A DNA stretch of 64,000 nucleotides from Tribonema minus (Eukaryota > Sar > Xanthophyceae > Tribonematales > Tribonemataceae), in assembly GCA_017506865.1 (NCBI GenBank), contig JAFCMP010000554.1:1-64000 (forward strand). Reading direction: 5' to 3'. Of this stretch, positions 270-64,000 are shown one piece after another (position 1 is the stretch's first letter; the number at the start of each line of letters is the position of its first letter). A model generated the notes under the pieces. The model had not been told where the DNA came from, did no database searches, and worked only from the letters and a program-made list of their open reading frames with translations. Both the position numbers and the translations under genes were made by a program.

Positions 270-1081
270 CAGTCAACAGGATCCGCTGGCAGAGCACCAG
301 CTTTCTGCAGCTTCTATCGCCTGCTTCACACGGCGACGTACGCTTTACATGCGCTCGCATCACACTGCTGGGCTTACTTCAACACTCATTCATCGCTCAC
401 TTCCTGCGGTGACCTGCCAATGCTCTCCCCTGTGGCGAACAGGATCTGCTTGCAGAGCATCACCTCTCTTAACTACCTATACTTGAAGTAGCTTACTTCA
501 CACGTTGACGTACATGCTCGGCTGCGCTTTCCTCAATCATTGTCGCTTACTTCATGTGGTGACGTGCCATGCTCTTCCCCTTGCGGCGAACAGGATCTGC
601 TGGCGGAGCATCACCTTTCTCCGCTGTGTATCGCCTACTTGACACGGGGACTCACACTTTACATGCGTGCATCTCACGACCGCGCATTCTTCAACACTCA
701 TCATTTACTCGCGGTGACGTGCCATGCCCTCCCTTTGCTGCGAACAGGATCTGCTGGCAGAGTATCACCTTCCTCTTCAAATATTTACTTCTATCGTCTA
801 CTAGGCGACGTACGCTTCACATGCCCCCGCATCAAGCTGCTCCTCCTCCTTCAATATTCATCGCTTACCTCACGTGATGACACGATACGCGATGATCATT
901 GTGCGAGCAGGATCTGTTAGCAGAGTATCACTTTTCCTCACTGTCTTCAGCTTACTTCACACGATGACGTACACGCGTTCGCACGGCTGCGCTTTCTTCA
1001 ACATCCCACCGCTGCGCTTTCTTCAATGCTCATTGTTACTTCATGCGGTGACGTGCCATGCTCTCCCTTTTCGGCCAACAG
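270..1081 (+). repeat. Five copies of IWS1 exon start (acceptor-side array)
   Basis: Five degenerate direct copies of the intron end plus the first ~20 bases of the exon at 1082 begin (GATCTG-type core) at about 280, 443, 594, 748 and 911, before the real exon at 1082. Spacing is 150-170 bp. Each keeps the acceptor-like 'aacag' followed by GATCTGCTGGCAGAG-like sequence and then diverges, and each is preceded by a related 'tcatgtggtgacgtgcca' block. Only the last copy reads on into a long open exon. The stretch before 270 holds no gene I can support. Confidence 0.85.
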
Positions 1082-4000
1082 GATCTGCTGGCAGAGTATC
1101 AGGGGGATGGCCCCCGTGATGCCGGTCCCGACTCGGAGGCAGAGGAGGAGAAGCCCGGTCAGCGCGAGAAAGAGGAGGTCAACGATCTTGATGTGGTGAG
1201 TTCTTTTGTCTTTTGTTTTTCTGGTACTTGTAGTGCCGATAGCGCTTGTGTTCCACTGTATGAGTCCACGCGTGACACGAGCACAAGAGTTGTGTATCTA
1301 CGGTTGATGTTTGGTTTACTTTATTACCTACATATGGTACCATTGTGTATGCGAGAAAGAGGAGGTCAACGATCTTGATGTGGTGAGTTTCTGCTCTGTT
1401 TCTTTGTGTACTCGTGGGTAGGGGTGTTGTGGGCAGCACGCGTCATCGTTTGTTGTACCACGAGCATGTGTGAGCTCTGGTGAAGTTACTCATTAATTGT
1501 GTGCATATGGGCGTGATGGGCATGAATGGTTGGTGGTAGTACCGTGTGTAAAGGCACATGACGCTGGGTACCCCGAAGGTCCCCTTAATCCTATGCCAAA
1601 TGTGTGGGATGTGAGCTTTGGGATCCTTGATGTGGCGAGTATATTTGCTGTTTTGTGCTGGCAGTGCTTGTAGTTAGTTTAAAGTCAGGGGCATGCACAT
1701 TTTGATAGCACCGGTGTATGTGTACGTTTGTGGAAACGAATCAAAAGAGCGCCGATCTGCAGGTGATATCAGATTCGATCGATGTCCTACATGGTACCAG
1801 TATGCATGTGAGCTTTACTGTTGTGTAGTATCTCTGTGTTTGGGGGTCATGGGAAAGCACTTTTGAAATGACCTCGCTCTACGGGTGTCCGGGGTATGCA
1901 CGTATGCACGAGTGTGGCGCACTGTGCCAGCAAACCTCTTTTGGCGCACCATGTGACAACAGTTTTCAACCGTGATTTACGTGCACACGCCAAAGTTGAC
2001 GACAGGCCACATCAGAAGTCGCCTGTGACCTACATGTGGTGCGTTGCCACAACGGTACCGTTGTTTGCCTAACCTCAACCCCAAGCTTATCTCAAGACCC
2101 GCCATCATCCCGCAAATGAGCGCTGCCGACGTGATCGCATCAATGCAGATGCTTACCCCCCCCCCTCCCCCTCCCCCTTTCCCCCCCTACCCCTCGTGCC
2201 CCCCCCCATTATCGCAGGTGCTCAAGTCGATGAAGCGCATACGCGGTCAGCAGCTGTCCATCGCAGAGCGCGACACCTTTGCGCAGGACTTCATGCACTT
2301 CATGGACACGGCCGCCGCGGAGGTGAGCGCGCGGCTGTTTCACTTTGCAAAACTGTCACGCCTGTAACAGACTTTGTCGCACTGCAAGTGTACACCTTTG
2401 CGCAGGACTTCATGCACTTCATGGACACGGCCGCCGCGGAGGTGAGCGCGCGGCACAGCTGCTTCACATCCTGAAAGTGTCATGCCTGCACTACTCCTGT
2501 ACAAAAAAAATGAATCAAAAGATCATAGAGCACTAGGTGACGAGGTGTAGTTAGCCGTCAAACTGAATGCCTTCCACCAATAACCGTGGTCGCCACTGCT
2601 GCGGCAACTGGCCACGAGTCAAACAGTGCCACCATATCCACAGCAGTCCAAAAGACTTCATGCACTTCATGGACACGGCTGCCGCGGAGGTGAGCGCGCA
2701 GCCGTTTCACTTTGGAAACTGTCACGCCTGTGACAGACTACGTGGCACTGCGAGGGCAATTGCTTGTGTGTGCGTGTCTGTGTGCGTGCGTGCGTGCGTG
2801 TCTGTTGTGCCGTGTGCTTTCGTGTGTCGAAATGGCCCTTTGTGCTGAGGTGAGCTCGCGGCTGTTTCACTTTGCGAAACTAACAAAAGGTGTTTTTGTT
2901 TACTGTCTGCCAAAGGCTGAAGCAAACCAAACTGGCCAACCACATCAGGCCCTCTTCTACGTTGCATTGCTGCTATAGTTTTTGGTTCTGCTAGCGTACG
3001 TTAAGCCACACCAGTGAGTAGTGGGATAATAACCCCAATACATCGAATGAAAAACGCAAGTGTTGGCTCATCATGCCTGTAGTGCAACTTCACACAGTCT
3101 GGCAGGGCCATCACTTGTGTGTGACACAGAACGCTCACAAACGCGGTGAACTTCCTCACTCGTACTGTGAGGGGGAAGGTCAGCACGTGCGGCCAGCTCC
3201 CTTCCCTCGAACAGATCGCCGCAATCAAACAGCAGTTCGATTCGGACGTCGCGCTGCGACTGGGCTGGACACTGCCCGCATCAAATCCCTCCCCCCTCTC
3301 CACCGCCCACCCACCCCCTTTGTCCCCCCCCTGCAGGACGAGAGACTGGTGCGCGAAGGCAAGCCGGCGTTCGCCAAGATCAAGGCGCTCAAGGCCGTGC
3401 AGCGGACGCTCAGGTCAGTGCTCAGCGCTCTTGCGCTTCGATGTGTGCGTATGGCAGCGCTCAGCGCGGTGGCAGCGCTCTGCATGCGCGCCACGATGCC
3501 AATGATCAAGGCGCTCAAGGCCGTGCAGCGCACGCTCAGGTCAGTACTCAGCGCTGGTGCCATACCGAGGCAGCGCATCTCGCGCGGTAAGGTTAGGGTA
3601 AGGCTCAGGGATAGGGCTAGGGCTCAGGCACAGTGGCGCTTTGCTGGTCTTTGGAAGCTCTAGGGGGGGTAGTCAACACGGACGTCAGGGCTCAGCGCAG
3701 TGACGCCGCGATACAGCAGCGTCCCTCGCCGTGACGCAGTGGCAGCGCTCGCGACGCTCAGGTCAGTGCTCAGCGCTCATCGCGCAGCGACTCTGCAACA
3801 ACGCCGTTCTCCTCATGTGTGATGCGGTGGCAGCGCGCTTCGATGTGTGCGTATGGCAGCGCTCAGCATGGTGGCAGCGATCCGCAATGCGCGATGACAT
3901 GGCAGCACTCAGAGCGCAGCAGCAGCGCTCAACGCCAAGGTGCGATGCAGCGCTCAACATGTGGTATGTGGCAGCGCTCGACGTGTGCGTATGGCAGCGC

Positions 4001-7000
4001 TCAGCGTGGTGACAGCGCTCCGCATGCGCGCCATGATGGCGTGGCAGCGCTCGACGATCAGGTCAGCGCTCTGCGCAGCAACAAGCGGCGTACGCTCTCC
4101 CCAAAGCTCTCGTATCGGCGCCTGTTTGCTAAGCGAAACGAGGCTCCCCAGCCCCATGCGTAGAAGATGGTAGCTGATTTGCAAGTGCGTGATGCGAGGG
4201 CAGTGCTCAACGCCCCTGTCAGTGCCTGAGCGCTCAGCGCTCAGCTCAGCAGCAGCGCTTACGGTTAGGGCTAGGGTTAGATTTAGATTTACGGTTAGGG
4301 TTAGGATTGGGTCAGGGGTTAGGGGGGGTTTGGCCAGTGCTCAGCGCTCAGCGCACTGGCGACGCTCCGCATGTAGCTACCTGCCGACAGTTACACAAAA
4401 AGTGCCGCAGCAGCAGCTGCTCTGCCGGACGCCGACTACTGTGACAGTGCGCTGTGACGACCAGCAGTGCTCACATTGTCCGAACACCTGCCGCTGACGT
4501 TTATGCTCACTCTGGCTGTACACCCGCTGTGCGTTGCCACCGGGCTGTGCCGATGCGCGCTGTGCAGCAAGCAGGACCTGTGGGAGACACTGCTTGAAGT
4601 TGACCTTTTGACGGGCGTCAAGAAGTGGATCAGCCCGTATGAGGGGAGGGGGACGCTCCCCAGCCTGGACGTGCGCAAGGTCAGTGTACATACATGAAAT
4701 AGCATTATCAACAAGTTCTGTAAACATACTCGTTAAGAAGTGGATCAGCCCGTACGAGGGGAGGGGGACGTTTCCCAGTCTCGACGTGCGCAAGGTCAGT
4801 GTACATACATGAAAGAATATCATTGATATGTATTGCAAAGTAGAAGTACTTCTTATATAGATATATAGTGTGTGGATGTTTGCGCCAGGAAACCTGGACG
4901 TGCGCAAGGTCAGTGTACATGCGTGAATATCATATTTACATAATTACATGTTCTTCGAAGTACATTTGTCTATTGATGTACAGTGTGTACATGGAAACGA
5001 ATCCAAAGATCGTCGAGCTCTAGGTCATAAGGTGTGGTTAATTGCAAGTACCTTCCACCGATAACCGTGGTTGGCGCTGCTGCGGCAATTGGCCACGAAT
5101 CCAAAGATCGTCGAGCTCTAGGTCATAAGGTGTGGTTAATTGCAAGTACCTTCCACCGATAACCGTGGTTGGCGCTGCTGCGGCAATTGGCCACGAGTCG
5201 TACAGTGCCACCATATTCACAGGAGCCAAAATACTTCTGTGTGCATGTTCGTCAATGTGCATTTGTCTATAGATGTACATGTTTGCACCCCCTAGTATGT
5301 ATGCGTCTACCACCGCAAGGTCAGTGCACATACATGAACATTATTATGTGTACTCAAACGCGCCGCGCGCGTCCTGTGTGCCACCTGCACTGCCTGCCTT
5401 AAACCCTAACCCTAACCCTAAAGAGAGGGAGCTGGTGACGCTGCAGATCGGTATTTTGAACATCAGAATCAATGAATACAACAAAAAGAGAACTTCAACA
5501 AGCGAGCACCTCGGGCTCTACGCGTCGGTAGTGTACAGATTTGCTGACGTCGTCCGTGGAGAACGAGCACCTGCGGCGCTCCCAGTTGGGCAAAAGATGA
5601 ATTTTCACACACTTCAACTTCTTCAACTTTAACAAGCCCACAACTTCAACATCATGCACTTCCGTCCTCGCAGACGATGTAAGCGATCTTGCTGCCGCTG
5701 CCCGTGGAGAAAAAGCATCTGCGGCGCTCCACACTGAGCGCTGCAACTTGAACCTCCTACTTCAAATACAAAAAAACAACCAAAACAAAGATACACCTCT
5801 CTGTCTGTGCGTGCAGGCAATGTACGCGATTCTGTTGACGCTGCCTGTGGAGAAGGAGCACCTGAAGCGCTCCCAGCTGGGCATGACTATAATGGCCATG
5901 AAGCAGCACCCGGAGGAGACGGCCGAGAACAAGCGCACGCTCGCGCAGCTCATTGAGAAGTGGTGCCGCCCCATCTACAACAAGGGGGTGAGTTTCATCT
6001 GTAGACTTCAATTTGATCATACAAGTTCAAGCGCACGCTCGCGCAGCTCATTGAGAAGTGGTGCCGCCCCATCCACAAGAAGGGGGTGGGTTTTGTCCAT
6101 ATCAGTTGAAATTGTGCTACCAAGTTCAAGTGTGTGTGGTACGGCTCATTGAGAAGTGGTCCCAGTTTTAGCCCCTCGTATAGTTCTAGGTTGATGAACA
6201 AGTTCAAATGGTGTGTTACGCATCTGAAAATTCAACTTGAACTATCCATATATTTTCTGTTCTTGAGCCACAGCTTCGAAGTATGTGTATTACATTCAGG
6301 CGTCGTCGTGCCTACAGCCACAGCTCACATGCACATTGCACACTTCCGCAAGTTCAAGCGCGCGATCGCACAAAAAGGTGCTGGCCCATATAACAAGGGG
6401 GTTCAGCTTTTGTTCAGTGTGACAAACACGTGCAATTGTGTGGTATACCCACGTTGTACACTTGCGTGTGCCGCAAGTGCAGAAGCGATTGCCGGCCCAC
6501 GTGCATCCATAGTCAGCGAATGCCCCTGCTCGCATTGCCAGTGACACATCTGTCCTACTTCTGCTGACCTTGCCATGCAACGCAAGCTGTGCAGTCAGCG
6601 TTGCACGTGGCATTTGGCATGGCGCCGACCTACCCTTCACCTTAACGCTAGATACGAGCAGAGTGGTGCAATCAAACTTCAAGTGCTCATGCTGTGCAAT
6701 CAACTTCAACTACAACAAACTTCAAGTGCTCATGCTACCTACCCTTTTTGTGCCCCCCCCCCCCTCTCCCCCCAGACGGACCTGCGCGAGCTATCGCGCG
6801 TGCAGGAGGAGATTGAGCTGTCGCGCGACGAGCGGCGCCAGGCCATGATACCCAAGAAACAGACTTCCGCGCAGGTATGCATGTATGGACATGATTTGAA
6901 TGATTCTAGTATGTACTTTTTATCAATTCTCGCTCAGGGCGCGAAAAAGCCCAGATGAATGGCAGCTAACTTGAAGCTTGCTGTAAGGAACTACATGTCG

Positions 7001-9656
7001 TGTGACAGTCTGAAAGTGTCTCAACGACAACCACTCAAACGCCGCCGCCGCCAAATGGCATCTCGGGATCCTCCCCTACTTCCTCCTCCATGTGCCCCCC
7101 CCCCCAGTATGTACTTCTATGTTTTTATCACCTTCATTACACTTGACTGTTGGCGGTGGGGGGCGGGTTGTGGGGGGTCAGACCATGATACCCAAGAAGC
7201 AGACATCGGCGCAGGTATGTATTATGCATGTTTGTGTCATGTCAATCACACCCAACAGTTATGGCGGTGTGTGTAGGGGCAGGCCATGATAATCAAGAAA
7301 CACACTTCAGCGCAGGTATGGTATTGACGTATTATGTGTGTGCGTAACGCCTCAATCACAGTGGACTATTATGGGGGGTGGGGGGCGCGGGGTGTGTGGA
7401 GCCACGCCATGATACCCCAGAAACAGACATGAGCGCAGGTAGGTATGTACGTTTGCAGCACCTCAATTACGTTTGACTGTTATGAGTTGTAAATAAATTC
7501 ATTGCTGTCGCGTCGGCTCGTCTGATCATTGCGTCGGTGTTGCCGTTTTGTCGCCATTTGCGCGACAGGAATCGGTCAAGGGCGTCTTCCGGGCCGCATC
7601 GGCGGCGGCGCTATCGGGATTGTATAGTGCTCTGAATAAGTTTTTGTTGAAGTAACCCATTGTTACAGGAGTTGTTGTTATCCTCGATATGTGCTTGAAG
7701 TAACTCATTGACACAGCAGTTGTCACCTCGGCACCTCTGATCATTGCGCCGGTGTCGCCGTCTGCAACAGGAATCAGTCAAGGACGTTTTTCAGGCGGCA
7801 GCGGCGGCGGCGGCGGCGGCCGATACGGCAAAGCGCGTGCGCGTGCCGCGATCGCACGGTCTCGTCTTCCAGCACCGCCCGCAGAGCAGGCAAGTACTGT
7901 TGCATGCATATATTTTTGTATAAACATGTACTTGCCAATTTATCTGCATGTTGTCGTACCCAAAACACATATTGTTGAGGAGAGGCTGTGCTTGGGTGCA
8001 TGCATTCGTGGCTGACGTGGGGTTAGGGTTAGGGTTAGGGTTAGGGGTAGGTTAGGTGTTCGACAGTGATCGCACGGTCTCGTCTTTCAACACCGCCGCA
8101 GAGCAGGCAAGTGCCGCCGCATACACCCATAAAGTACACATATTAGCAGCAGTGTACACCTTGATGTACAACATATACAACAAACTTTAAAGTATGCACA
8201 TAGCAAGTTATATCGTGCCGCAATTGCACGGTCTCGTTCTCTCAGCACGGCTTGCAGAGTAGGCAAGTACTGCCGCATGCATGAATTCACCTATTCTTTC
8301 CAATTTGATATGCATGGAAACGAATCGAAAGATCGTAGAGCTTCAGATGACAAGTTGTGGTTAGTCGTCGCATTGAATGCCTTCCACCAATGACCGTGGT
8401 CGTTGCTGCTGCAGCAGTCGGCCAGGAGTCAAACAGTGCCACTGTATATTATCATACCTGAAGCACCAATGTAGTCTGCAAGGAGAGGATGTGCTTGAGT
8501 GCGTGCGTTCCTGGCCGACTTGGGGTTAGGGTTAGGGTTAGGGTTAGGGTTAAAGTTGCTTGATGTCGATTGCACGTCCTCGTCTCTCAGCAGCGCCAGC
8601 AGAGCAGGCAAGTGCCGCCGCATGCATACTTTGATATGTACTTCTCAAGTTCATTTTTGCTTGTAATCGTACCTTTTCAGCATACACTCCCAGACAAGGG
8701 CGTACTTGAGTACCTGCTTACGTGGCTGACATGGCACAGCAAAGCGCGTAAAAGCTCGCGTTTGAACGGACTCGTTTTCCAGCACTGCCCGCAGAGTAGG
8801 CAAGTTGTGCATACTTACAAGGACACATATGTGCACAAGCTCACGATTTGTGAGTTGTGACTCATGCCACGCTGTTACGGTCCAATCGCTTCTGCAGGGT
8901 GGAACGGAGATGTCAAACTCCAAACACGCGTGCGTACTTCGAAGTGTAGCTCAGAGTACACTTACATACTTCGAAAGTATACATATCAGCATGTACTGGT
9001 GTTGCAGTATGATTTATGGTTCAGAAAGGTATGCTGACAACATGTGAGTCGCGACCCATGTATGCTGCAGGGTGATGATCACGACAATTTGTGAGTCATG
9101 ACTCATGACTCATGTACGCTGTGACGCGCTATTTGCTGCTGCAGGGTGGACACGGAGATGATGAACACCACGCATGCGTGCATACCTAAAGTCATATCTC
9201 ACTGTACACATGTCAACATGTACTAGTGTTGTAGTACTACAGTATTGAAAAGTATGCACCATGAGTCGTGAGTCATGAGTCATGTACGATGTGATGCTCC
9301 AAACGCTGCAGGGTGGACACGGAGATGATGAACTCCACGATGTGTGAGTCGTGACTCATGACTCATGTATGCTGTTTTGCTTCAATTGCTGCTGCAGGGT
9401 GGACACGGGAGATGTTAAACTTCAAACATGCGTGCACACTTCAAAGTATATCACAGTACACTTACACGTACATCTCAGTATGTGCTAGTGTTGTACCATC
9501 TTTGAAATGTATGCCGCTCCTCGATTTGTGAGTCGTGAGTCATGTATGCTGTGATGCTTCAAACGCTGCAGGGTGGACACGGAGATGATGAATACCGGTG
9601 CCGGTGCACCCCAGGAGCCCGCCACAAGCCAGGCAAAGCTGACCAAGCGCATGTTG
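1082..9656 (+). CDS. IWS1/SPN1 transcription elongation factor (5'-partial in window)
   Basis: Exons read as 1082-1195, 2218-2322, 3337-3413, 4568-4679, 5817-5987, 6776-6874, 7771-7889 and 9572-9656; phases are compatible throughout, giving 294 codons. IWS1 (Spn1) binds Spt6 and RNA polymerase II and acts in elongation and mRNA processing in the nucleus. Evidence: an acidic N-terminal exon, then [12 protein letters not shown], then a TFIIS N-terminal/LW-type helical bundle ([70 protein letters not shown]), then the basic tail ([19 protein letters not shown]) in the order known for the family. The exon ending at 7889 uses a GC donor (gcaagt). The start codon lies upstream of the window; an extra exon between 1195 and 2218 cannot be excluded. 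The C-terminal exon is uncertain (see 10173). Every intron contains copies of neighbouring exon edges. Confidence 0.9.
2393..2880 (+). repeat. Donor-side copies of IWS1 exon 2218-2322
   Basis: Copies of the exon end (GACTTCATGCACTTCATGGA...GCGGAG followed by gtgagcgcgcgg) lie at about 2393-2455 and 2656-2705, and a short remnant (gaggtgagctcgcggctg) at about 2846-2880. All are in direct orientation and keep the donor site. Confidence 0.85.
2512..2655 (-). repeat. Dispersed repeat family A, copy 1
   Basis: About 145 bp beginning gaatcaaaagatc and ending gtgccaccatatccacagcag. Relatives lie at 4993, 8312, 33630 and 51103. Read on the minus strand the family encodes a conserved stretch starting MVALFDSWP; this copy carries one in-frame stop in it. 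Confidence 0.75.
3506..4080 (+). repeat. Donor-side copies of IWS1 exon 3337-3413 with AGCGCTC-rich filler
   Basis: A clear copy of the exon end (atcaaggcgctcaaggccgt, then cacgctcag/gtcagt) is at 3506-3545. Shorter remnants ending caggtcagtgctcagcgctc occur near 3755 and 4055. The filler is dominated by AGCGCTC words and continues to about 4370. Confidence 0.75.
4261..4325 (+). repeat. Degenerate interstitial telomeric tract
   Basis: Irregular TTAGGG/TTAGATTT-type repeats inside an IWS1 intron. A shorter, weaker tract of the same kind lies at about 3591-3632. Confidence 0.7.
4735..4925 (+). repeat. Donor-side copies of IWS1 exon 4568-4679
   Basis: A long copy (about 4735-4800) repeats aagtggatcagcccgta... 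through gacgtgcgcaag/gtcagt, and a short one (about 4892-4920) keeps only ctggacgtgcgcaag/gtcagt. Downstream intron text (gtacatacatgaa) is repeated with each. Confidence 0.85.
4993..5230 (-). repeat. Dispersed repeat family A, copy 2 (partly tandem)
   Basis: Two near-identical ~100-bp units in tandem (from 4995 and 5096), the second continuing to the usual family end near 5227. On the minus strand the frame [14 protein letters not shown]...VIGGR is open. Confidence 0.8.
5400..5422 (-). repeat. Interstitial telomeric tract (CCCTAA)
   Basis: Three and a half uninterrupted CCCTAA units within the IWS1 intron that precedes exon 5817-5987. Confidence 0.85.
5535..5740 (+). repeat. Acceptor-side copies of IWS1 exon 5817-5987
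   Basis: Two degenerate copies of the exon's first ~65 bases: about 5541-5600 (gtggagaacgagcacctg, cgctcccagttgggc) and about 5670-5735 (ctgcccgtggagaaaaagca). Both precede the real exon and are frame-broken. Confidence 0.75.
6025..6405 (+). repeat. Donor-side copies of IWS1 exon 5817-5987
   Basis: A strong copy at about 6028-6092 (aagcgcacgctcgcgcagct through caagaagggg/gtgggt), a remnant at about 6137-6165 (cattgagaagtggtccc) and a third, very diverged one at about 6353-6405. Confidence 0.8.
6912..7006 (+). repeat. Dispersed repeat B, copy 1
   Basis: 95 bp that recur in inverted orientation at 19675-19769 at roughly 90% identity by eye. The core ctcgctcagggcgcgaaaaa plus gccc contains a short stem (GGGC...GCCC). 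A third, partial copy of the core lies at about 10715-10750. Confidence 0.85.
7180..7440 (+). repeat. Donor-side copies of IWS1 exon 6776-6874
   Basis: Three copies of the exon end (catgatacccaagaagcaga through gcgcag/gtatg) at about 7180-7216, 7284-7320 and 7408-7442, each with a donor-like 'caggta' and similar following intron sequence. Confidence 0.85.
7565..7625 (+). repeat. Acceptor-side copy of IWS1 exon 7771-7889
   Basis: gacaggaatcggtcaagggc...ttccgggccgcatcggcggc resembles the intron end and first ~50 bases of the exon at 7771, including the alanine-coding GCG run. Confidence 0.75.
8020..8050 (+). repeat. Interstitial telomeric tract (TTAGGG)
   Basis: Four perfect TTAGGG units within the IWS1 intron after exon 7771-7889. 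Confidence 0.9.
8312..8450 (-). repeat. Dispersed repeat family A, copy 3
   Basis: Begins gaaacgaatcgaaagatcgt and ends gagtcaaacagtgccac. The minus-strand frame (VALFDSWP...TVIGGRH) is open in this copy. Confidence 0.78.
8521..8552 (+). repeat. Interstitial telomeric tract (TTAGGG)
   Basis: Five uninterrupted TTAGGG units inside the donor-copy array of the same IWS1 intron. Confidence 0.9.
8893..9571 (+). repeat. Acceptor-side copies of IWS1 exon 9572-9656
   Basis: Copies of ctgcag/GGTGGACACGGAGATG-type sequence occur at about 8895, 9139, 9307 and 9394, before the real exon at 9572; an incomplete one is near 9068. The spacer contains repeated palindromic gtgagtcatgactcatg words. Confidence 0.85.
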
Positions 9657-20790: not shown

Positions 20791-20824
20791 AGCCTAAGCA
20801 GCATGTGCAGCGCAGCGCAGTTCT

Positions 20825-47795: not shown

Positions 47796-48099
47796 CTCCT
47801 CGAGCGACCTGAGCACTGATATTGCCGAGCACTGATATTGCTGCCTGCTTCCCGCCCGTTTCTGTAGTACACTTCTATCGCGGTGCGCTGACTTGATGGT
47901 GATGATGCCGCTCATACTGGACAACTATGCAGGAGGCTTCCCCTGGCTTGCTGTCGGCGTCTGCGTGTCCATGTGACCGGAAGCGGATGCTGGCTCCATT
48001 GTAGGTGTAATGGATGGATTGCACACCACCACTGTCCTTGTTGCCTCTCTCCTTTTGTGTCTGTTTTGCTTTGTTGTTTGCGCCATACAATGAGTAGAC

Positions 48100-48355
48100 G
48101 ACAGTGAATTTGTTCACAATTTTGTGCTTGCGACGTGTTAACTGTAAGGATTGCGGGCTTTGCTGAGATGCTGGATGATGATGTTGCAACTGCAAAAGCT
48201 TTTTTAATCCTTCAACGGTTGCCGCTTCAAGACGACAAGTGAATTCAAACACAAAATTGTGGTTGCGACGCGTCGACTGTAGGGATTGCGGGCTGTTTCT
48301 CATGCTGGATGATGATGGTGTTGTCACTGCAAAAGCTGTGAAAAGCTTGCATTTT
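48100..48355 (+). repeat. Tandem duplication upstream of TRMT10
   Basis: Two ~110-bp copies, about 48115-48215 and 48255-48355, sharing ttgcgacgcgt-like, gggattgcgggct, atgctggatgatgatg and actgcaaaagct words. It lies in the 48-kb intergenic stretch between the SAM gene and TRMT10 (47796-48458), where I see no gene. Confidence 0.8.
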
Positions 48356-48458
48356 ACTTCAACGGGTAATAACGTTACTTTCAAGTGCACTTCAACTTCA
48401 AGTACAACTTCAACGTCTCAGTTGGTGTGAAAATGTGAGTGTGTGTGTGGTAGCTTAG

Positions 48459-51400
48459 ATGAGGTCCGCCGCCGTGCTTCTCACTGCCATGCGGCTGTGC
48501 GAATGCTGCGCACAGGCCCTGCTCATCTCGATGGATTGCAAGGACAGCGTCACAGTGGACGTGCAAAAATACATGGACAGGAGACGAGCCAAGGTGCAGC
48601 GATTCGCTGACAGGGAGGCAACCTTGGCTGCTGCCAAGATAATCAGAAAGGACAAGCACAAAGCTAAGCGCCAGCGACAGAGGTATACTGTTTGCACGTG
48701 GGTGTACAATGACAACTTTCGATTTTGCTCATGATCATGTCAATATGCCCAGAGCAGCATCAACCAACAGAGGTGCACAATGTGTACAACAACTTCCGAT
48801 TGTGCTTATGATCAAGTTATCGTGCCTAGAAGCAGCAGCAGCCAACAGAGGTGCACACAGTTTGCGTGTTGATGTGCAACAATTATTTTGTGATTCAAGT
48901 CGACAAAACTGCTCGTCATGTTGCTATGGTTTCGATTATGCTTTTGTGATTCAAGTCAACATGACGCCGCTGTGCTACCACAAACTGCTTGTCATGTTGT
49001 TATGGCAGGGAAGAGCTAGGCGATGACGAATTCGTGCAGCAGCGAGCCCTCAAAAGGCTCTCGAGGCAGCAGGGCGAGGAGCGATTGCGAGTGGCGTTGG
49101 CCAACCCGTACGGACCGCGCATTGTCGTAGATCTGGCCTACTCAGATCAGCATCGTCCTGAGGTACGTACACCATACACACCACCATACGCCACAAGCCT
49201 TGCAGGACAGGGCCTGCAGAGGAGTTTGTCAGCCCAGCAATGTAACTGCCTTGCACCACAAGCCTTGCAGGACAGGGTCTGCAGAGGAGTTTGTCATCCC
49301 AGCAAGTCACTACGTAGTGTGTACCGACAGTAAGCGGGGGGCATGCTCACATAGCGCCGCCCCCCCCCCTGCTCTGCGCGATCGCCCCCCCCTCACGCTC
49401 TGACTCGTCACACTGTGACTCACACGTGACAGGTCGCAGTGCATCAGCACCTGAGCCGAGTACAAAGCCAACCCTCTTGCACCATATCGTCCGCGTCCAT
49501 CAAGCTCTTCGACGCCACACGCGCTGCTGTCGGCCTTGACCGACTCGGTCGCGTATGCTGACAGCATCAATGTCCACGCAGGTCACATCTAGGCCCCCGC
49601 CCCCTCCCAAGGCTGTGGCCCATGGCTTGCGGCAGCGCCCCGTGCATGGGTTTCCGCGCTGAGCATCAGCAGCTTCACTCTGCGCTGCCTGATTTTCATC
49701 TACTGAGCGCTGCCCCATCTCTTGAATGGCGCCTCATCTCCAGCGCTGCCTGCCCCCCCCGCCCCCTGAGCACGCTCTGCCGAGCACCACATGCGCTTCT
49801 ACAAGTGTCCTGTCTCCTGAGCAAAGCTTTCCCCAATCTCCTGAGCACTGTCTCACTGCCTCATCCCCTGAGCGCTGCCTCATCTCCGCTGCACTGCCTC
49901 ATGTCCTCAGCGCTGCCCACTTTCCTGATCGCTGCCCTCCCTCCTCTGCAGAGCACTGCCTCATGCCATGACCGCTGCCTCCGCCTCCTCCACACAGGCG
50001 CTGCAGTCGCTGGCTCGCCAAGTCGGCCGCCCTGCGCGCGCTGACTCATCTACTGAGCGCTGCCTCATCTCCTGAGCACCGCATGTTCACCCCCTGAGCG
50101 CTGCTGCCTCACCCCTGAGCGCTGCCCTCGCTCCTTGAGCACTGCCACATCTCCTGAGCGCCGCTGCCGCATATCGTGAGCGCTGCTGCCTAATCCCCTG
50201 AGCGCGCGCTGCCTCATCCCCTGAGCGCTGCCTCCGCCTCCGCCGCGCAGGCGCTGCAGTCGCTGGCCCGCCAGGTCGCCCGCGCGCGTACGGCGCCCTC
50301 CGCGCGTGCAATGCCCCCCCCCCCCCCCACGCTCTGACTCACATCGTGCGGCACCTTATCTCCTGAATGCTGCCTCCGCCGCAGGCGCTGCAGTCGCTGG
50401 CGCGCCAGGTCGCCTGCGCGTACGGCACCCTCCGCGCGCGCGCGACATTTTCCTGAGTGCTGCCTCATCTCCTGAGCGCTGCTGCTTCATCCCCCTGAGC
50501 GCTGCCTCAGCCCCTGAACGTTGCTGCCTTATCTCCTGAACGCTGCCTCCGCCGCAGGCGCTGCAGTCGCTGGCGCGCCAGGTCGGCCACGCGTACGGCG
50601 CCCTTCGCGCGAGCGAAGACGCCCCCCCCGCGTTGTGGCTCACGTCGTGCGGCGCCGCGGCGGCGCGCGCCGCGTTCGCGGAGCAGGGCTGGGACGCATG
50701 GGCTGTGGAGAGGAGGGAGGAGAGCGTGTTTGACTGCGTGCCGCGCGAGAGCATTGTGTATCTGAGCCCTGACGCGGAGCACGCGCTGGAGGGGGTGGAA
50801 CCGGGGGTCACGTACGTTGTGGGGGGCATCGTGGACAGGTAGTGAAAGCGCTGCTTGTGCACGCATGCATACTCAAATGCGGACTGCATCAAGAACAGAC
50901 GATGGCTCATATTCCAGTTCATAATCCCATTGAAGTCGTCCATAGTCTTAGGTAGTCAGTAGAAGGAACACGCAGCAGTGCCGCCTCATTTTCATGCAAC
51001 TTCAACTTCTGGAGGGGGTGGAGGCGGGGGTTTACGTATGTTGTGGGGGGCATCGTGGACAGGTGATGAGAGCTCTGCTTGCGGCCTTGGGTGCTACTGG
51101 AATCGAATCAAAAGATGGCAGAGCTCTAGGTGACAAGGTCTGGTTAGCCGCAAATGCCTTCCACCAATGACCGTGGTCGCCGCTGCTGCGGCAATTGGCC
51201 ATGAGTCAAACAGTGCCACCATATCCACAGCAGTCAAAAGACTTATGTGTGCATGTGTGCTCTATTCTGTAGAGCGTACTCTAATATGTTACTAGACTGA
51301 ACAATATAGTAAAGCTGTCGAACTCTACACAACAAAGGCAGCTCATAAGGAGCGTTGTCATACTCAACTAAAAAAGTGCCTGCCAACTGGAGTGCTACTG

Positions 51401-53769: not shown

Positions 53770-56700
53770 TCATTTGTCCTGCACCAGCGCAAAAGTGAAC
53801 TCCTTAACTTCAACTGCCAACTTCCCGTCCACGTAGCCCCGCCCCGCCATCTTGGCGATGCCGAAGCGCTGCTTCCACGCGGTCAGCTCCACCTGCGCAG
53901 TGTGCGCAGAGACGCGCATAGGGGGCACTGTTACTTCAACGTTTCAGCTACCAATGAGTGTTCTCGTTGAAAGTGGCCAACTTGCCATAGATTAGTAGGT
54001 GGGGTACATGATCTTCAACTGAGGACGGATGGTGGCACGCCAGACTGCGGCACCAGGCACAGAGTGGGTTCAAGTGACGCTCCTCATGCATCTTCAAATA
54101 CCTACGTCAAGACCTGGTTCCGCTGGCCAAAGCATATCCCTTTCTAAAATCGTACAGAAGATCTGCACACTCATAGTAGCAAAGAAACGAAACAAAGCTC
54201 ATGCGCCCCATCAAATTCGCACTTAGTTAATTCCACCGTGAATCGAGCGGACACCCTTGAAGTTGGCAACTTCGCTTCGTTGTTGAGGCAGTGACCCTCT
54301 GCAATCTCGAATTTCTCAGCAACTGCAGAGTGTGATAGCAACTTCAATCCAGACTGGTTGCTGTACAACTTGCTCGATAACTGGCCTGCCTGCGATGTAA
54401 TGGTACTGTTAGCAGTAACTTCAATGAGTGTTGTTGCTTAATCAAAGGGCAAACCATGGTGTCTATTTTTATATAGAACATTGCAGAATTTGCTGCAATA
54501 TGGTTATGTGCGCTTGACCAGACGACTGCACCGTGCAGCAAAGTCTTTTTCTCTTTACACATCTCATGTGCAGCCAGTCAGAGAGCCGTCTGTACTGCAT
54601 GTACTGATGGCTCGCGTGAGGGTATTGCAACCCAGCAAATGGCAATGGAGCCGGTCATACCGACACCTGATAGCAAACAGGGCTGTTGCTGTGCATACAG
54701 TGCTCTTCAGTATTTCTGCACCAGACGAGCAGTTTGAGCAGATCTCAACTGGGGTGAATGACAACTTGACAAGCATGATACTAGCAGTATGAGCAGATCT
54801 CAAGTGGCCACTGGGGTGAATGACAATTTGACAAGCATGCTACTTCTATTCACCAGTTTGCGTTGGTCAGCCTACATTTCCACTGTACTTCAAGTCAACT
54901 ATCAAGCTCACCCAGGTCGATGTACTTCAAATGTGACTGTTATTCGCGGCGAAAACATAGTTCCATCGTCTTCCAGCTGCAAACGTAGCACTTCATGTTC
55001 TAGAGCAAAGCCCAGATTACAGCCACCACGAATGCTCGCACATGCATGCGACATTAGTGCACAACCGCGTGTGTACCCTGCAATTGTGACAGTACGCGGT
55101 CCGCGATTCGACTGAGCCCAGTTTGATCGTGCCTGCCACCTACTATCATAGTTCGAAATGGCACCATATACTGTGCATTGAAGTTGAAGTTCAGCACGGG
55201 CCAACTTGGCTCCCTGGCACCAACTGCTCACCGCCCACAGCTTCTCCAAAAAAACACACGCTTTTGCTAGAGTTCCGAGCCGGAACCGGCTAAGACGGTT
55301 CCGGCTCGTCTAGACGGCGAAGACGCAAAGACGGAATGTCAACACACCATCTTTTCCGTCTTTTTTCAAAACAGCTTTTATGGCTTTTATAACACTCCAG
55401 CAGGCATGTGGCTCACGTACAATGCCAAGGCAAGAGTGCTGATGCACCGCTACTACGCACTGCTGCTTGCTTCACTTTTTCCGGTCTGACTCACTTCAAG
55501 TTTGAAGTGCAGTGTGTGGTCGTTATCGGTTATCGCGTGCAGGAGTGTTGTGCTTTGCTGTGTAGGTTCCCACGAAAGCTGTGTTGCCCCTACATGCAGT
55601 AATCATTTGGTTCACGGTCAAGATGAAAGTAGGTGAGTCGGCGTGGCAAGGCCATCTTCGACCGTCTTTTCCGTCTTGTCTTTTCCGTCTTGGACGTAAA
55701 AGACGGTCGAAGACGGTACAGCCCGTCTGGACGGCTCAGACGGACGGCGGGCTAAGCCGTCTGCAATTAAGACGGTTTGTGGGACCGGCTCGGAACTCCA
55801 GCTTTTGCGCTTTTAACTTCAAGTTGGAGTTCACCATGACCAAGTGACGTGCCACGATGCGCCCAGGCCACTGACCTCCATGACCCGCACATCCCCGGGC
55901 ACCACGGGCTTGCGCCACTTAACGCCGTCCACACACCCTTCTTGAGACCACACACACACTTTGAACTTCAAGTTCAAGTTCACCATCGCTACTGTGACCA
56001 AGTGACATGCCACAACGCGGGCCACATGTGACCAAGTGACAGGCACGAACGCGGCCTCTCACCTCCATGACCAGCACGGCTTGCACCACTGCACGCTGTC
56101 CACCCGCTTCAAATTTCAACTTGAAGTTCACCACCCAACTAAGTGACATGCCACAACGCCACTAACCTCCATGACCAGCACATCCCCGGGCACCACGGGC
56201 TTGCGCCACTTAACACCGTCCACCCCCCCGAAGAAGAATGTCCCCTTGCCATCCGAGATGGGCGCCTGCAGCGCGATTATCCCCCCCAGCTGCGCCATGG
56301 CCTCGACCTGCGCGGCAGCAGCAGCAGCAGCGGCGGCAGCGGCAGCAGCAACAGCGGCAGCGGCGGCAGGTGGGCTCAGAGCGGCGACACGAGCGCCGCA
56401 GAGCCGCAGACGCTACTAGTAGGTGTACGCTGAGCCGCGCATGCAGTGCGCAGGTTTTGACGACGAGATGCTGTGTGCCGCCTTGTGCAGGCCTGCAAGC
56501 TGTTTTGCGTTGGCAATGCGACACATGCCAAGTTCACATTTGCGATTTGCAATGCCAGTGGAGATGGTCTAAATGGGTGAGAGCTCGGTCTGAGCTGTGC
56601 TGTGTCTCATGCGAGCATTCCTGTTTTGAGAGCGATGGGAGAGCCGTCGCACATTGCTCAACTGCACGAAGAGCAACAGCTCAACTAATTATGTGGCATA

Positions 56701-58156: not shown

Positions 58157-61100
58157 ATGAGTGCAGCCGTGGCCAGCAGCCTGCCGGTGCCGGGCCCTGG
58201 CGCAGCAGCGCCGGAGCAGGATGGGAGCAGCAGCAATGGAGGTGCGGCGGATGTCGAGGCGGCATCCCAGGGGAAGGTCAAGGGCATCATCGTGCCGCCA
58301 CCCGAGATCAGGGCCATTGCTGACAAAACCGCCCGCTTTGTGGCCAAAAACGGCAAGAGCTTTGAGCAGAGGATTTTGAATAGCGAGGAGGGCAGGTGCG
58401 TTTTAAACTTCTAGCAATGTGATTGTACAAAGCCTAGCATAGCAGTGTTTAGCATTCGAGGTAGTGGATTTGACATTGTGAATCTTCTCTCCGGACTGCT
58501 CATATGTGCGAATGACGCCCGAAGGTTCAGTCTGTAGCCGGATAGCACCATGGCTGAGCACAAATCACGGCAGCTGCACAGAGGCTTGGTTGTAAGAATC
58601 AGGAATCGCATACGTCCGCTGAACAATCGCGTAAGCCTCTCTGTTCTCTCTCATGTGTCTGTCTGGCGCTTGGCAGGAGCGCAAAGTTCAACTTCATGCG
58701 GCCGCACGACCCCTACTACGCCTACTATGAGTACAAGATTAGAGAGGTGGAAGAGGGGAGGGATACCCCCGCAGGTGCGCCGGCTGCACCCGCGCCGGCA
58801 GCGGCAGCGCCAGCGGCGGCAGCAGCAGACGGCGAGGCGAAGGAGCCGGGGAAGGCGACGGCGGCGGCGGCGGTGCAGAAAAAGGCGGTGATGGCGCCCA
58901 TTGCCAAAGCGGCGCGGACCATTGCAAAGGACGTCAAGCCTCCGCCATTTGTTTTCAGCCATGGGTGAGTTTGAATCCGCTGCCCATTTGTTGGTGCTGG
59001 TGTGTGCAGAGCGTTGGCTGTGGTGCATGGAAAGCATGACTGCGCAGCCGAGACGCATTGCTTGTTGAAGTTACTCAGGTTGTGATGGCACCTACTGCCA
59101 AGGCAGCGCGGACCATTACAAAGGACCTCAAGCCTCCGCCGTTTGTATTCAGCCATGGGTGAGTTCGTATCCGCTGTCTATCTGCTGATGGTGCTGTGTG
59201 CGGAGCGCTGCGGTGCGCGATGCGCAGGCCGGATACACTGGTTGTTGAAGTTGCTCAGGTCGGGACATGCAAATAAATTTACGGCAGAATCAGTTTATGA
59301 TTCATCATCAGGGGAAGCCAGTGGCAGTTGTCTTGGCCGTTCTCACGTTCTTGCACTTGCAGGGTGTTGTGTGCGTCAGTGCAGTGACCTGCCGGCAAGC
59401 TGGCGACTTCCGTATATGGCCCTGCAGAGACAACGTGCCGCACCTACATGCTCTGCACAACACTGAATACTCATCAAATGATGAGCTTGCAAACGTACGC
59501 AATCTGATCAGTTGCTGGTCAGGGCTGCTTGGCCCCTGTTGGGCAAGAGTCACATGCGCAAGTGTAACATAACTTGAAGTGTTACCTCGCGCACCTGAGC
59601 TTCAGCGTGTTGTCGGCAGTGAGGGGTTACTTGTCACGCCCTGTTGGTGTGCTTCCGAACCACTGTCGATATTTGGCTTGCCGCGCAACAGAGTCGAAGT
59701 TATGGGGGTGATGGTGTTGAGGTTGCATGCTGCGAACAGCATAGCCACAGGGCTCGCCACTGTGGCACGCGAGGTCGCAGACGTGAGAGTGTATGCAGGC
59801 TACATGGGGGAATGCTGACGCCTGCATTGCCGCCGGTGCCATCTGTCACCACAGGCACCCGACAGGTCTCACTGCGCACGATCTCGACCTGATTAAGCTT
59901 ACGGCGCAATACACGGCTGCGGGCGGGAGGCAGTTTCTGGCGACGCTGGCTCGGAAGGAGGCGCAAAATGAAATGTTCCAGGTGCGTTTCAGAGGCTGTT
60001 GCCAATGTCCTGCGCAAAAACCATGCCGGCAGGGCAGCGTTGTTGGGACGCCTTGCTTGGTCATTGGGGGCACGAGTGCATGGCAGTGAGACGCGACACG
60101 TGGCGCTGAGGTCATCTGCGTCGATTGCACAGGTGGGCTGCAGTCCGCTGTGCCTATTGGGGGCCGACGCACTGCCCTGTGGCATCGCATCACAGTCGCT
60201 GCTGCAGCAGCGCGGCACCTGAGCGATGCTGCAGAGTCCATAGTACATAGGTATACATGCGTCATAGTCAGGGCGCATGACGCGCAGAGCTGCGCTCCAG
60301 CCCTCGGACGGCGAGCCATGCGGCCATTCATCAGATGCTGCAGCGTTGCGGCATCCCAGTCAGCGTTGCGCGGCATTGGTAGAATCACGGTCGGTATGTA
60401 TGTCTCGCAGTCAGGGTATGTGACGCGCCAGCGTCTGATGACCGGGCGTGCTGCAGCCTGCTTTCAACTGCGTCGTGGTGCGTAATTGCAGTGCTGAGTG
60501 CTGCACCTCTGCCGACAGTGAGCCGTGCTGCAGCCTTCTGCTGCACCTGAGCCGTGCTGCGTCAGTCACAACGCTCAGCAGCGCTGCGTCCTTGTAGGTG
60601 ACGAACCGTGCGGCAGCCTGCTGTGCCTGAGCCGTGCTGCGCCAATTGCAATGCTCAGCAGCGCTGCATCCTTAAAAGCATTCAACTTCAAGTCGTGCAT
60701 CTTTGATAGTGATATCATACGATCGATTTTTTTTAACAGCGACCCCTGAACCTTTGCCTATCAAATCTGATGAAATTTGTCGGTGATGAGCCGTGCTGCA
60801 GCCTGCTGCACCTGAGCTGTGCTGCGTCAGTTGCAATGCTCAGCAGCGCTGCATTCTTGCCATTTTCCTGCAGCTCCTAAAGGGCGCGCACGCGCTGTTC
60901 AGCTGTGCTACTCCAGTTGCAATGCTCAGCAGCAGGCCTGTACCCTTGCCAATGTCCTGCAGTTCCTCAAGGGCATGCACGCGCTGTTCAGCTACTTCGC
61001 TTCACCTGAGGCGTGCTGCGTCAGTTGCAATGCTCAGCAGCGCTGCATCCCTGCCAATGTCGCGCAGTTTCTCAAGGGTACGCACGCGCTGTTCAGCTAC

Positions 61101-64000
61101 TTCGCTTCGCCTGAGCCGTGCTGCGCCAGTTGCAATGCTGAGCAGCGCTGCATTTTTTATAACCTGCAGTTCCTCAAGGGCACGCACGCGCTGTTCAGCT
61201 ACTTTACGAGCCTGGTGGATGCGTATACGAAGGTGCTGCAGCCCACGGAGCAGCAGAAAGCGGCGGCGAAGGCGGGGTGCTCGCGACAGGTCAGTTGAAG
61301 TTTTGCTTCATCGATTCTCGCTGAGATGTATACCTCTGCCACTCGCAGGCAACAAGGACACGCCGACTGTGAGCATTGAGTAGTGACAGTCCCTGCATGT
61401 TTGAAACTGGGAAGCCGGTAGCTGATACCGTGGAAAGGTGTTTATTTCTGTGAATCTGACCACAGCAGATGAGTGCTTGTTCGTAACGGAGGGATGCTTG
61501 CGGGTGGCCCGAAAAGTGTACCTGCGCCAATCGTCACAGTGGAAGAGTGTGGTTGATTCAACGGGCGGGATGGTACAGGCCACTTTGCTGAACTTGAAGT
61601 GGTGCATAGCTGACGTTGAAGTGGTGCTCGCGGCAGGTCAGTTGACGTGTGCTTTCATTAATTCTCGCTGATGATGTATACCTCTGCCAATCGCAACAGT
61701 GTTCGTTTCGTTTCGTCTGCAACGGTGCAAGCCAGTTCCTATCTTCGTGGGGGACTGTGTTTTGGACTTGAAGCATAGCTGAACTTGAAGTTCTGTACAT
61801 GTGTGACCTGTTGCGGCGTTGGAGGCACTCCGATGTGAGTTTGAAGTTTGAAAGGCCATGCCGCACCACGCAAATGTGGCACGTGCACTGAGCAATTAGT
61901 GTGTCATACAATGGCTTTTGTTGGCAGGTAACACTGGAGCGTGCGGGTCACCTAGGAGCATTGCTGAAGTTGAAGTTCCCACAAAGCATTTCTCAATGTA
62001 CATCCCTGACACAATCGTGCGGTTCAGGCACTCTGGTGCCCTTAAAAGGGCCATGGCGCACCACGCAATCGTGATCGTCTTGTGCATGTGTTCTGAGCAG
62101 TTGCTGTGTCGTGCGATGGCTTTTGTTGGCAGGTCATGCTAGAGCGCGCAGTCCACCGCTGGGAGTACGACAGGGCGGAGCAGGAGAAGCGAAGAGCGCA
62201 GGTGAGGGTGCCTCTTATAAAAGCGACTATAGTTGCCACTTCAGTGTATATGCTGATGTAAATGCAAAGGTGAGCGTGCCCATGCTGCAGAGTATCACAG
62301 TCATGCTAGCAGGAGAACGAAAAGCGCAGGTGAGGGTGCCTCTCATCAAAGCGAGTATACTCTGCCACTTCAATGTATGCTGAAGTCATGCAGAGGTTAG
62401 CGTGCACATCTGCAGAGTACCACCGTCATGTTATTGCAGATGTGTTGATGCTGTAAAGCACCAGGTGCAGTGCTGTCCATGCCGTCTGGCCTTGATGCAT
62501 GTCATAATGCACTGCCACAATCACTCAGGTGATACTCCGTGCAATAACTACGCTCTGAAGCTGATGTGTTTTGTGAATGCAATTCAACAACTCAGCGTTT
62601 CATGACTCGACTTGATGTTGGCAATCTACGTCACTACCCGGTGCGTTGCATTCATGAACTTTTTCATGCGTCGCTGTGGCTCTTTGCAATGCCAGGAAGC
62701 GGAAATGGACGCAGACAAGCTGGCGTTTCGGAGCATTGACTGGCAGGACTTTGTGGTGGTGGAGACCATTGACTTCCCAGAGGATGAGCTTACGGGCGTT
62801 ACCTACGGCACCATGGACGAGGAGCAGGACGTGGAGATGGACATGGTATGTCACTTGTTGAAATTTATACAGTCGTAGAAGAGGCGGAGTCAGTGCCGGT
62901 AATTTCTGGAATGTCACTTGTTGAAGTTCGCGTACTTGTAGAAGGAGCAGGACTTTGTGGTGGTGGAGACCATTGACTTCCCGGAGGATGAGCTGACAGG
63001 CGTTACCTACGGCACCATGGACGAGGATTAGGACGTGGAGTGGACATGGTACCTGCCGGAATGTCACTTGTTGAAGTTCATCTGATTGTAGAAGCAGCGG
63101 GGTCAATGAACCGTGGACGAGGAGCAGCATCATGGAGATTGACTTGGTAACTGTCACTTGTTGAAGTTCATTGAATTGTTGAAGAAGCGGTGTAAATGAG
63201 GCGCCGTGATGCGCCGTGGAGATGGACATGTAACTTATGGAGTGTCACTTGTTGAAGCTCATGTGCTTGTAGAAGAAGCAGGGTCAATGCAGTATGGACG
63301 AGTAGCAAAACGTGGAGAGGACAGGGTAACTTATGGAGTGTCACTAAGTGTAAAAGAAGCGGTCAATAAGGCGCTGTGATGCGCGGACTGCACCTCCTCG
63401 TGCTGATGACCAGCATGTCTGGCGAAACAGCATGTCTGGCAATACGGACATTTGCACCGCATGTGACTCAAGCATCATGTATAAGCAGGGTGCCGCCAGC
63501 GGCGTGAAGATGTAGGGTAAGGGTTTAGGTAAGGTGGCTGTGTTTATCTTCATGGATACATTTGGACTGTGTATCTGAAATAGCATGTGTCTGAGTGTGT
63601 GCTGCACGGATTGCTCCTTCACGCCATACCCTGTGCCATGATTCATGTCGCACTCTGGACGAGGCGCCACCAGAGTTCATGAAAGTAACTTTCGAAGTTG
63701 AGCTGCCCACTACTGGCTCCAGCTGAAAGCAGCCTGTCCTGTCCTAGCACGTGCGGGGCTGTGATGACAACGAGACGCTTCCACACGTTTGCAGGATCAT
63801 ATCGCTCTGCTTCAGAGGCCTTCGCACCTGCAGGTTTACTCATACGCCGCATCAATCAAAGCCACTGCTTCTTTCACAACGACACCACGACGAGCGTCTT
63901 CCGCCCCCCCCTCCCAGGACGAAGAGGACGTGTCCGGCTTCCGCGTCGACCAGCTGCGCCAGGAGCACGCGGCGCGCACGGAGGTCGACGTCGACATGGA
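58157..64000 (+). CDS. SF3A1/PRP21 splicing factor (3'-partial)
   Basis: Exons 58157-58395, 58677-58964, 59855-59981, 61170-61289, 62133-62201, 62696-62845 and 63918-64000 (runs off the window) keep one frame. SF3A1 is a subunit of the SF3a complex of U2 snRNP. It has two SURP modules: SURP1 with IIVPPPEIRAIADKTARFVA, FEQRIL and FNFMRPHDPYYAYYEYKI; SURP2 with DLDLIKLTAQYTAAGGRQFL and, on the next exon, FLKGTHALFSYFTSLVDAYTK. The segment WEYDRAEQEKRRAQ and then IDWQDFVVVETIDFPEDE match the conserved centre of the family. A low-complexity Ala/Pro stretch sits after SURP1. The C-terminal ubiquitin-like domain would lie beyond the window. Exon-edge copies occur in most of its introns. Confidence 0.95.
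59075..59200 (+). repeat. Donor-side copy of SF3A1 exon 58677-58964
   Basis: gtgatggcacctactgccaa through tcagccatgg/gtgagt repeats the last ~85 bases of the exon, with 8 or so substitutions, plus about 60 bases of intron (cgctgtctatctgctgatgg). The unit is ~195 bp. Confidence 0.92.
60790..61115 (+). repeat. Acceptor-side copies of SF3A1 exon 61170-61289
   Basis: Three copies of ctgcag/TTCCTCAAGGGCACGCACGC-like sequence start at about 60873 (ctcctaaagggcgcgcacgc), 60962 and 61068; the real exon starts at 61170. Each keeps gcgctgttcagctacttc (the first in shortened form), then falls into gagccgtgctgcgtcagttg / caatgctcagcagcgctgca, which repeats from about 60520 on. Units are about 90-110 bp. 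Confidence 0.92.
61290..61700 (+). repeat. Duplicated intron start after SF3A1 exon 61170-61289
   Basis: The stretch caggtcagttgaagttttgc ... attctcgctgagatgtatacctctgcca (61287 on) recurs at about 61633-61700 with the donor-like ggcaggtcag, about 350 bp away. Confidence 0.75.
61905..61945 (+). repeat. Acceptor-side copy of SF3A1 exon 62133-62201
   Basis: atggcttttgttggcag/gta...ctggagcgtgcg repeats the intron end and first ~20 bases of the exon about 215 bp upstream. Confidence 0.8.
62300..62375 (+). repeat. Donor-side copy of SF3A1 exon 62133-62201
   Basis: caggagaacgaaaagcgcag/gtgagggtgcctct and following 'aaagcgagtat' repeat the exon end and its intron about 125 bp downstream. Confidence 0.87.
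62940..63330 (+). repeat. Donor-side copies of SF3A1 exon 62696-62845
   Basis: A long copy at about 62946-63050 repeats caggactttgtggtggtgga through the exon end but carries an in-frame TAG (gaggattaggac). Progressively shorter remnants, each followed by gtcacttgttgaag, lie near 63110-63150, 63205-63235 and 63290-63325. Confidence 0.9.

Follow-up and report, generated by a model that had tools for sequence, protein, structure and literature searches.

Serial copies of exon edges suggest that introns of Tribonema minus lengthen by local duplication across splice junctions

In a 64,000-base stretch of the Tribonema minus genome (C551:1-64000, hereafter the window) and in independent genes elsewhere in the same genome, introns carry serial degenerate copies of the edges of the exons that they adjoin. 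Repeated short local duplications across exon-intron boundaries very probably lengthen these introns and leave such copies behind. The duplications, mostly of about 60-200 bp and most simply tandem, would recur across these boundaries, the copy landing downstream of the exon-attached donor on the donor side and upstream of the exon-attached acceptor on the acceptor side. Splicing would presumably continue at the exon-attached site, leaving the protein unchanged and the extra copy a harmless piece of intron, and the older copy would decay while fresh rounds add more, yielding serial degenerate copies and a longer intron. At the DNA level, the duplications may arise by slippage, unequal exchange or fill-in of staggered breaks. 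The sequence analysed comprised 33 stretches (262,273 bases, window included) of a eukaryotic genome of 158,181,000 bases in 554 contigs.

Exon-edge copies inside and outside the window

The repeats of the window are strongly local, in agreement with the proposal of an earlier note on this sequence: by self-BLAST, 139 of 152 direct-repeat pairs lay less than 6 kb apart and 134 less than 1 kb apart. Across the 33 stretches, most of which are too short for long distances, 159 of 168 pairs (at least 80% identity, at least 40 bases) were separated by less than 1 kb and none by 1-3 kb. Window junctions came from our own gene model, based on codon use and on the splice sites of dynein exons, then corrected by hand against the conserved protein reading; some copies that the model had called exons were replaced by hand. 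A copy was called when the terminal 40 exon nucleotides reached a Smith-Waterman score of at least 30 within their own adjacent intron; only that intron was searched, so that the polarity (acceptor copies upstream, donor copies downstream) is built into the test. Low-complexity matches were discarded before arrays were counted. Counting overlapping domain hits alone was dropped, since it seemed too insensitive for copies below about 30 codons.

Among 23 window introns of six genes, an own-intron copy of the exon edge was found at 13 of 23 donors and 10 of 23 acceptors, belonging to IWS1 (10 of 16 junctions), the transporter (5 of 6), WNK (3 of 8), EngB (2 of 4), SF3A1 (2 of 6) and FabZ (1 of 6, weak evidence). 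By contrast, the same edges gave no match in 3596 comparisons with introns of other genes, and the reverse-strand control within the own intron gave 1 of 46. These data demonstrate that the exon-edge copies described in the earlier note are real. Its count of more than 25 junctions comes down slightly, to 23 of 46; TRMT10 and the SF3A1 exon ending at 62845 lie outside the tested list, as do SAM, the later WNK introns and the transporter intron 23528. With 60-nucleotide edges, 56 copies scored at least 34. The clearest case is the transporter intron 25698-23803, where five copies of the donor edge occupy the first part and five of the acceptor edge the last. Two SF3A1 edges that looked duplicated by eye, acceptor 62133 and donor 61289, fell below threshold (scores 13 and 23).

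Genes outside the window were chosen solely by conserved Pfam domains, avoiding the discovery set, and supplied 30 dynein, 17 CCT chaperonin and 13 kinesin introns. Dynein heavy chain genes are abundant in this genome (59 exon matches of one dynein domain), and the 30 dynein introns served as training set for the splice and codon model applied to the CCT, kinesin and window junctions. About four of them were placed by hand (C146 876427, C146 186739, C531 176290 and C522 1585170), and C90 58957 and C514 492960 are less certain; dynein junctions with an unfixed partner exon and stretches reading N were left out. Also left out were poorly fitting CCT introns, C135 209687 (CCT), whose acceptor lies inside an array of near-identical copies, and, for kinesin, C101, two C141 gaps and two C479 gaps; kinesin C479 313525 was placed by hand and C516 752060 is a poor fit.

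Across these 60 introns, 35 of 120 junctions had an own-intron edge copy, at 17 of 60 donors and 18 of 60 acceptors (dynein, 8 and 10 of 30; CCT, 6 and 3 of 17; kinesin, 3 and 5 of 13). Matches to introns of other families numbered 6 in 4484 comparisons, five of them from dynein edges, and the reverse-strand control gave 0 of 120; for the dynein set alone, the control rises to about 1.2% through paralogous introns. In dynein and CCT genes, successive exon 40-mers taken inward from the junction had copies in 27 of 94, 9 of 93, 1 of 90, 0 of 61, 1 of 42 and 0 of 27 cases. The stated polarity fits this profile, since exon 40-mers farther inward are almost without copies in the intron. Edge copying recurs in independent genes and affects roughly one in three of the splice sites sampled.

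The duplicated unit, its decay and intron length

The repeated unit crosses the junction. In 50 copies from outside the window, the splice hexamer matched at 4.82 of 6 positions, and the next 40 intron nucleotides were 66% identical, compared with 34% at randomly chosen places of that intron. For a few individual copies, the intron beyond the exon edge showed no match. Short BLAST alignments had hinted at copying of the exon part alone; this was rejected because the average over the 50 copies shows the intron to be homologous too. Successive copies in all four sets are spaced by a median of 150 bases (quartiles 115-176), and unit lengths show no reading-frame preference (remainders 0, 1 and 2 modulo 3 in 17, 19 and 16 of 52). 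Acceptor units hold more intron than donor units (smallest 57 versus 24 bases; rank test p = 0.035, weak evidence), as expected if an acceptor survives only when its branch point and pyrimidine tract are retained.

Copies differed from their exons at 57/766, 51/762 and 106/763 sites of codon positions 1, 2 and 3 outside the window (7.4, 6.7 and 13.9%; p = 2.8e-6) and, with reading frames derived from codon scores, at 49/804, 43/812 and 117/796 in the window (6.1, 5.3 and 14.7%; p = 1.2e-11), these p values assuming independent mismatches although copies within one array share history. Both profiles are roughly the 1:1:2 expected when the copy is free to mutate and the exon accepts only synonymous change. 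A neutral simulation gave similar identities in the setting used (exon local, 0.895; next 40 nucleotides, 0.634; observed, 0.908 and 0.656), so that gene conversion from the exon is not needed to keep the copies alike. We conclude that the copies are old DNA decaying near-neutrally.

Introns with more copies tend to be longer (rho 0.63, p = 2e-10, n = 83 introns): mean length was 542 bp without copies (38 introns), 740 bp with one (19), 770 bp with two (9) and 1158 bp with three (9). Spare room in longer introns hardly explains this correlation, because chance matches are near zero. Edge duplication is not all of intron growth, since 38 of the 83 introns lack a detectable edge copy. For the same reason, the wording of the earlier note, that introns are "assembled from" junction copies, is strong; its core, local duplication across junctions with intron growth, is supported by the junction-crossing units, the neutral decay, the length correlation and the independent genes. 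Local repeats cover 38% of 24,437 intron bases, 37% of the unassigned stretch 48000-49000, 44% of the transporter 3' flank, 0, 0, 0, 0 and 9.6% of five stretches taken on weak grounds as non-intron, and 32, 3, 0 and 0% of four coding stretches, the first being a glutamine-rich repeat region. The edge claim does not rest on these coverage figures.

Probable preference for the exon edge and alternative explanations

The strongest alternative is tandem duplication spread uniformly over genes, in which edge copies remain because exon-internal events are purged and conserved exons keep their copies recognisable. It would explain the polarity, the neutral decay and the copied stop-codon edge of the transporter (window 20825-20650, minus strand) without anything edge-specific. 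This stop edge is the sole edge copy found without a splice site involved (1 of 5 stop edges and 0 of 3 presumed start edges, versus 23 of 46 splice edges); being copied like splice edges, it suggests that the process need not depend on splicing. Deep intron 40-mers also often match elsewhere in their own intron (12, 20 and 24% in the three outside sets, 35% in the window), partly through the same arrays. In addition, a first, cruder simulation of uniform duplication gave an edge-to-deep ratio of 1.63 in its sparsest setting, close to the ratio of about 1.6 observed outside the window, and ratios of 0.78, 0.84 and 0.89 in the three others.

However, arrays anchored at a junction are more frequent than uniform duplication predicts. 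They represent 38 of 50 arrays (76%) outside the window and 25 of 26 within it, whereas the simulated share averaged 43-47% over 48 runs (44.5% over 16 runs, highest 59%; 43-47% in four earlier settings of 8 runs each, highest about 60%). With window intron lengths, the best of 24 uniform runs reached 51%. Matched uniform runs fell slightly short of edge copies (21-31, compared with 35 of 120) and produced far too many deep matches (31% versus 12-24%). Making junction events 3 or 5 times likelier raised the anchored share to 65 and 73.5% (8 runs each); with window intron lengths, a 20-fold bias gave a mean of 81.5% in 12 runs, still under the observed 25 of 26. Outside the window, junction-anchored arrays exceed the uniform simulation about 3- to 5-fold, the size of the preference being uncertain. 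We therefore regard strictly uniform duplication as rather unlikely, and a preference for the edge, whether by mutation or by survival, as likely; the bias may lie in duplication rather than in retention. The bolder proposition, that duplication is aimed at exon edges, with introns growing from their ends like rings, and that intron length across the genome is set chiefly by this edge-specific process and not by transposons, is tentative, and we lean slightly against it.

Several observations weigh against growth by repeated duplication across junctions, or against its preference for edges. Edge copies are already expected when duplication is uniform and events inside exons are purged, and the deep intron matches and the 1.63 ratio count on the same side. 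The duplication simulation is simple, which limits the estimate of edge preference, and several of the 12 intronic-only arrays come close to the junction without including 12 exon bases. Simple tandem duplication predicts matching intron between copies, but few pairs are cleanly head-to-tail, and some recent-looking pairs (such as C508 333750-333825 and 333948-334023, 98.7% identical, gap 122) have no matching intron between their members. Copy order is only weakly conveyor-like, the nearest copy being best-scoring in 14 of 25 arrays (3 ties included; 8.9 expected). Finally, the excess of position-3 mismatches in the window goes above 2:1, possibly through mild constraint on the copies or higher third-position mutability, and GT, GC or AG is retained in 91 of 97 copies, slightly more than the per-site divergence of about 6-7% predicts.

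The last two observations would also suit functional copies, serving as alternative or decoy splice sites or as alternative exons. Such a role is improbable, and coding use in particular unlikely: unit lengths show no frame preference, codon-position mismatches outside the window fit free decay, and some copies contain indels or stops, seen by eye. Introner elements are repeats that contribute intron sequence, one family being found at many sites. This genome does have dispersed repeats, some of them intronic, but the hallmark of introners, near-identical sequence in many unrelated introns, is absent from the edge copies, which are private to their own gene (0/3596 and 6/4484 in the two control sets); insertion of introners or another mobile family is extremely improbable, and the distinction drawn in the earlier note stands. 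Although repeats are classic error-prone places, an assembly or sequencing artefact is very unlikely, since the copies depart from the exons at about 5-15% of sites, depending on codon position, and two separate sets show an excess at position 3 that errors would not produce.

Window arrays, other sequence features and related systems

Table 1. Arrays of exon-edge copies in the window.
Edge	Copies	Span	Strand	Evidence
IWS1 donor, last exon base 1195	one donor-edge copy, 1351-1382	1195-1382	+	junction test
IWS1 donor 2322	2392-2441, 2654-2689	2322-2689	+	junction test
IWS1 donor 3413	3498-3539	3413-3539	+	junction test
IWS1 donor 4679	4735-4794	4679-4794	+	junction test
IWS1 acceptor, first exon base 5817	upstream, 5532-5585, 5677-5730	5532-5817	+	junction test
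IWS1 donor 5987	6028-6085, 6144-6163	5987-6163	+	self-BLAST, junction test
IWS1 donor 6874	three: 7179-7214, 7280-7315, 7398-7438	6874-7438	+	junction test
IWS1 acceptor 7771	7569-7610	7569-7771	+	junction test
IWS1 GC donor 7889	four: 8068-8106, 8214-8262, 8567-8607, 8757-8799	7889-8799	+	junction test
IWS1 acceptor 9572	9145-9169, 9312-9332; shorter ones by eye near 8898, 9403	9145-9572	+	junction test
WNK acceptor 30135	30003-30045	30003-30135	+	junction test
WNK donor 30291	three: 30390-30452, 30533-30592, 30698-30747	30291-30747	+	junction test
WNK acceptor 32703	five: 31715-31734, 31982-32037, 32187-32245, 32339-32396, 32530-32585	31715-32703	+	junction test
PPR-EngB acceptor 42809	three: 42508-42539, 42627-42657, 42726-42745	42508-42809	+	junction test
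EngB acceptor 43731	three: 43292-43348, 43416-43475, 43586-43644	43292-43731	+	junction test
FabZ donor 56167	55932-55876	55876-56167	-	junction test
SF3A1 acceptor 61170	three: 60875-60904, 60963-60997, 61068-61102	60875-61170	+	junction test
SF3A1 donor 62201	62308-62329	62201-62329	+	junction test
SF3A1 donor near 62845	degenerate, downstream; next acceptor not fixed, outside tested list	62743-63282	+	self-BLAST
Transporter donor 26784	26688-26629, 26526-26467; period about 162	26467-26784	-	junction test
Transporter donor 25698	five serial copies reaching 25040	25040-25698	-	junction test
Transporter acceptor 23803	five serial copies, 23977-23918 to 24672-24645; scores steadily lower with distance	23803-24672	-	junction test
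Transporter donor 23224	23175-23145, 23087-23063, 22252-22214	22214-23224	-	junction test
Transporter acceptor 21049	21274-21237, 21641-21596	21049-21641	-	junction test
Transporter stop-codon edge 20825	last ~105 coding nucleotides copied in 3' flank, about 20757-20650	20650-20825	-	

GC-AG introns are common: GC donors occur in 5 of 30 dynein introns, and in three of these cases different dynein genes share the conserved position; the window has one at 7889 in IWS1. The solved structures closest to one dynein exon are probably chains of Tetrahymena, and the one closest to FabZ is probably from Plasmodium, which hints at, without proving, a flagellate with a red-type plastid. A second gene with a Med26 (IWS1/TFIIS-type) domain lies elsewhere in the genome (L001, C136:150349-150498; open frame of 400 codons). 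A dispersed repeat of about 100-125 bp, which could be a SINE (short interspersed nuclear element) or an introner-like family, is found in IWS1 introns at 2508-2632, 4997-5192 and 8318-8442, and at 51104-51200; its 98-base unit forms two exact tandem copies at 4997 and has at least 41 matches in the genome, 40 of 452 first-look candidates having been scored. The octamer TTGAAGTT occurs 55 times in the window (1.1 expected), for example at 31112, 33055, 38847 and 61295. Within the 83 introns, TTGAAG is biased toward the first half (38 of 66 occurrences), whereas CTTCAA favours the second (43 of 70). Both motifs are over-represented, but complementary pairing of intron ends through them was rejected, as the right order occurs in only 6 of the 83. 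Short interstitial TTAGGG arrays, several of them intronic, lie at 5404, 8023, 8526, 24741, 29588, 31490, 34086, 44831 and 51859; the TTAGGG 12-mer has 16 window matches (0 expected).

The earlier note knew of no described system of this kind, but the "mirage" minisatellites of amphioxus are known in Adh3 and in the globin genes BflGb6 and BflGb9 (PMC3087553). In the passages of that paper on which we draw, mirage units measure 150-160 and 157 bp in the two globin genes and 10-72 bp in Adh3 as reported there, several serial copies occur (81-100% identical in BflGb6), many copies carry splice signals, regular splicing seems undisturbed, and BflGb6 copy number varies between two haplotypes, concerted evolution in clusters being a further feature; mirages are suggested to be perhaps general in cephalochordates, and intron gain from them is proposed. 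Like mirages so described, the repeat unit here spans the exon-intron boundary (averaged over 50 copies, homology extends from the exon part through the splice hexamer into the intron beyond), donor and acceptor boundaries are both affected (17 + 18 of 60 each outside the window, 13 + 10 of 23 each inside), and the arrays are direct and minisatellite-like, with a median spacing of 150 and some pairs not cleanly head-to-tail. Unlike mirages, which that account places in a few genes of one animal lineage, the copies here affect 35 of 120 sampled junctions in an unrelated lineage, and copy number rises with intron length.

Intron gain by proto-splice-site duplication, as outlined in PMC2891723 (see also PMC4974935), likewise involves local tandem duplication within a gene that takes in splice motifs; there, a new intron arises inside an exon, whereas here growth seems to occur at the ends of introns already present. 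In Lipomyces stwintron formation, as presented in part of PMC7138796, the donor region of an existing intron is likewise duplicated and fill-in of staggered breaks is proposed, but these are 4-7 nucleotide events at one intron position, in contrast to units of about 150 bp at many introns here. Nothing of this kind was seen in the portion used of a Chlamydomonas intron-length study (PMC8226300). Searches of openly licensed literature found no report at comparable scale. Already known is the kind of array, represented by mirages; new are its frequency, the unrelated lineage and the link to intron length.

Lineage differences in intron length are usually ascribed to transposons and drift. In this genome, the traces of a simple local process can be read and counted at roughly one in three of the splice sites sampled, and they correlate with intron length. 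If this is true genome-wide, mirages, so far a curiosity of a few lancelet genes, would become measurable at scale, intron growth would become datable against the exon, and the genome would supply many naturally duplicated splice sites with which to study how the spliceosome chooses one.

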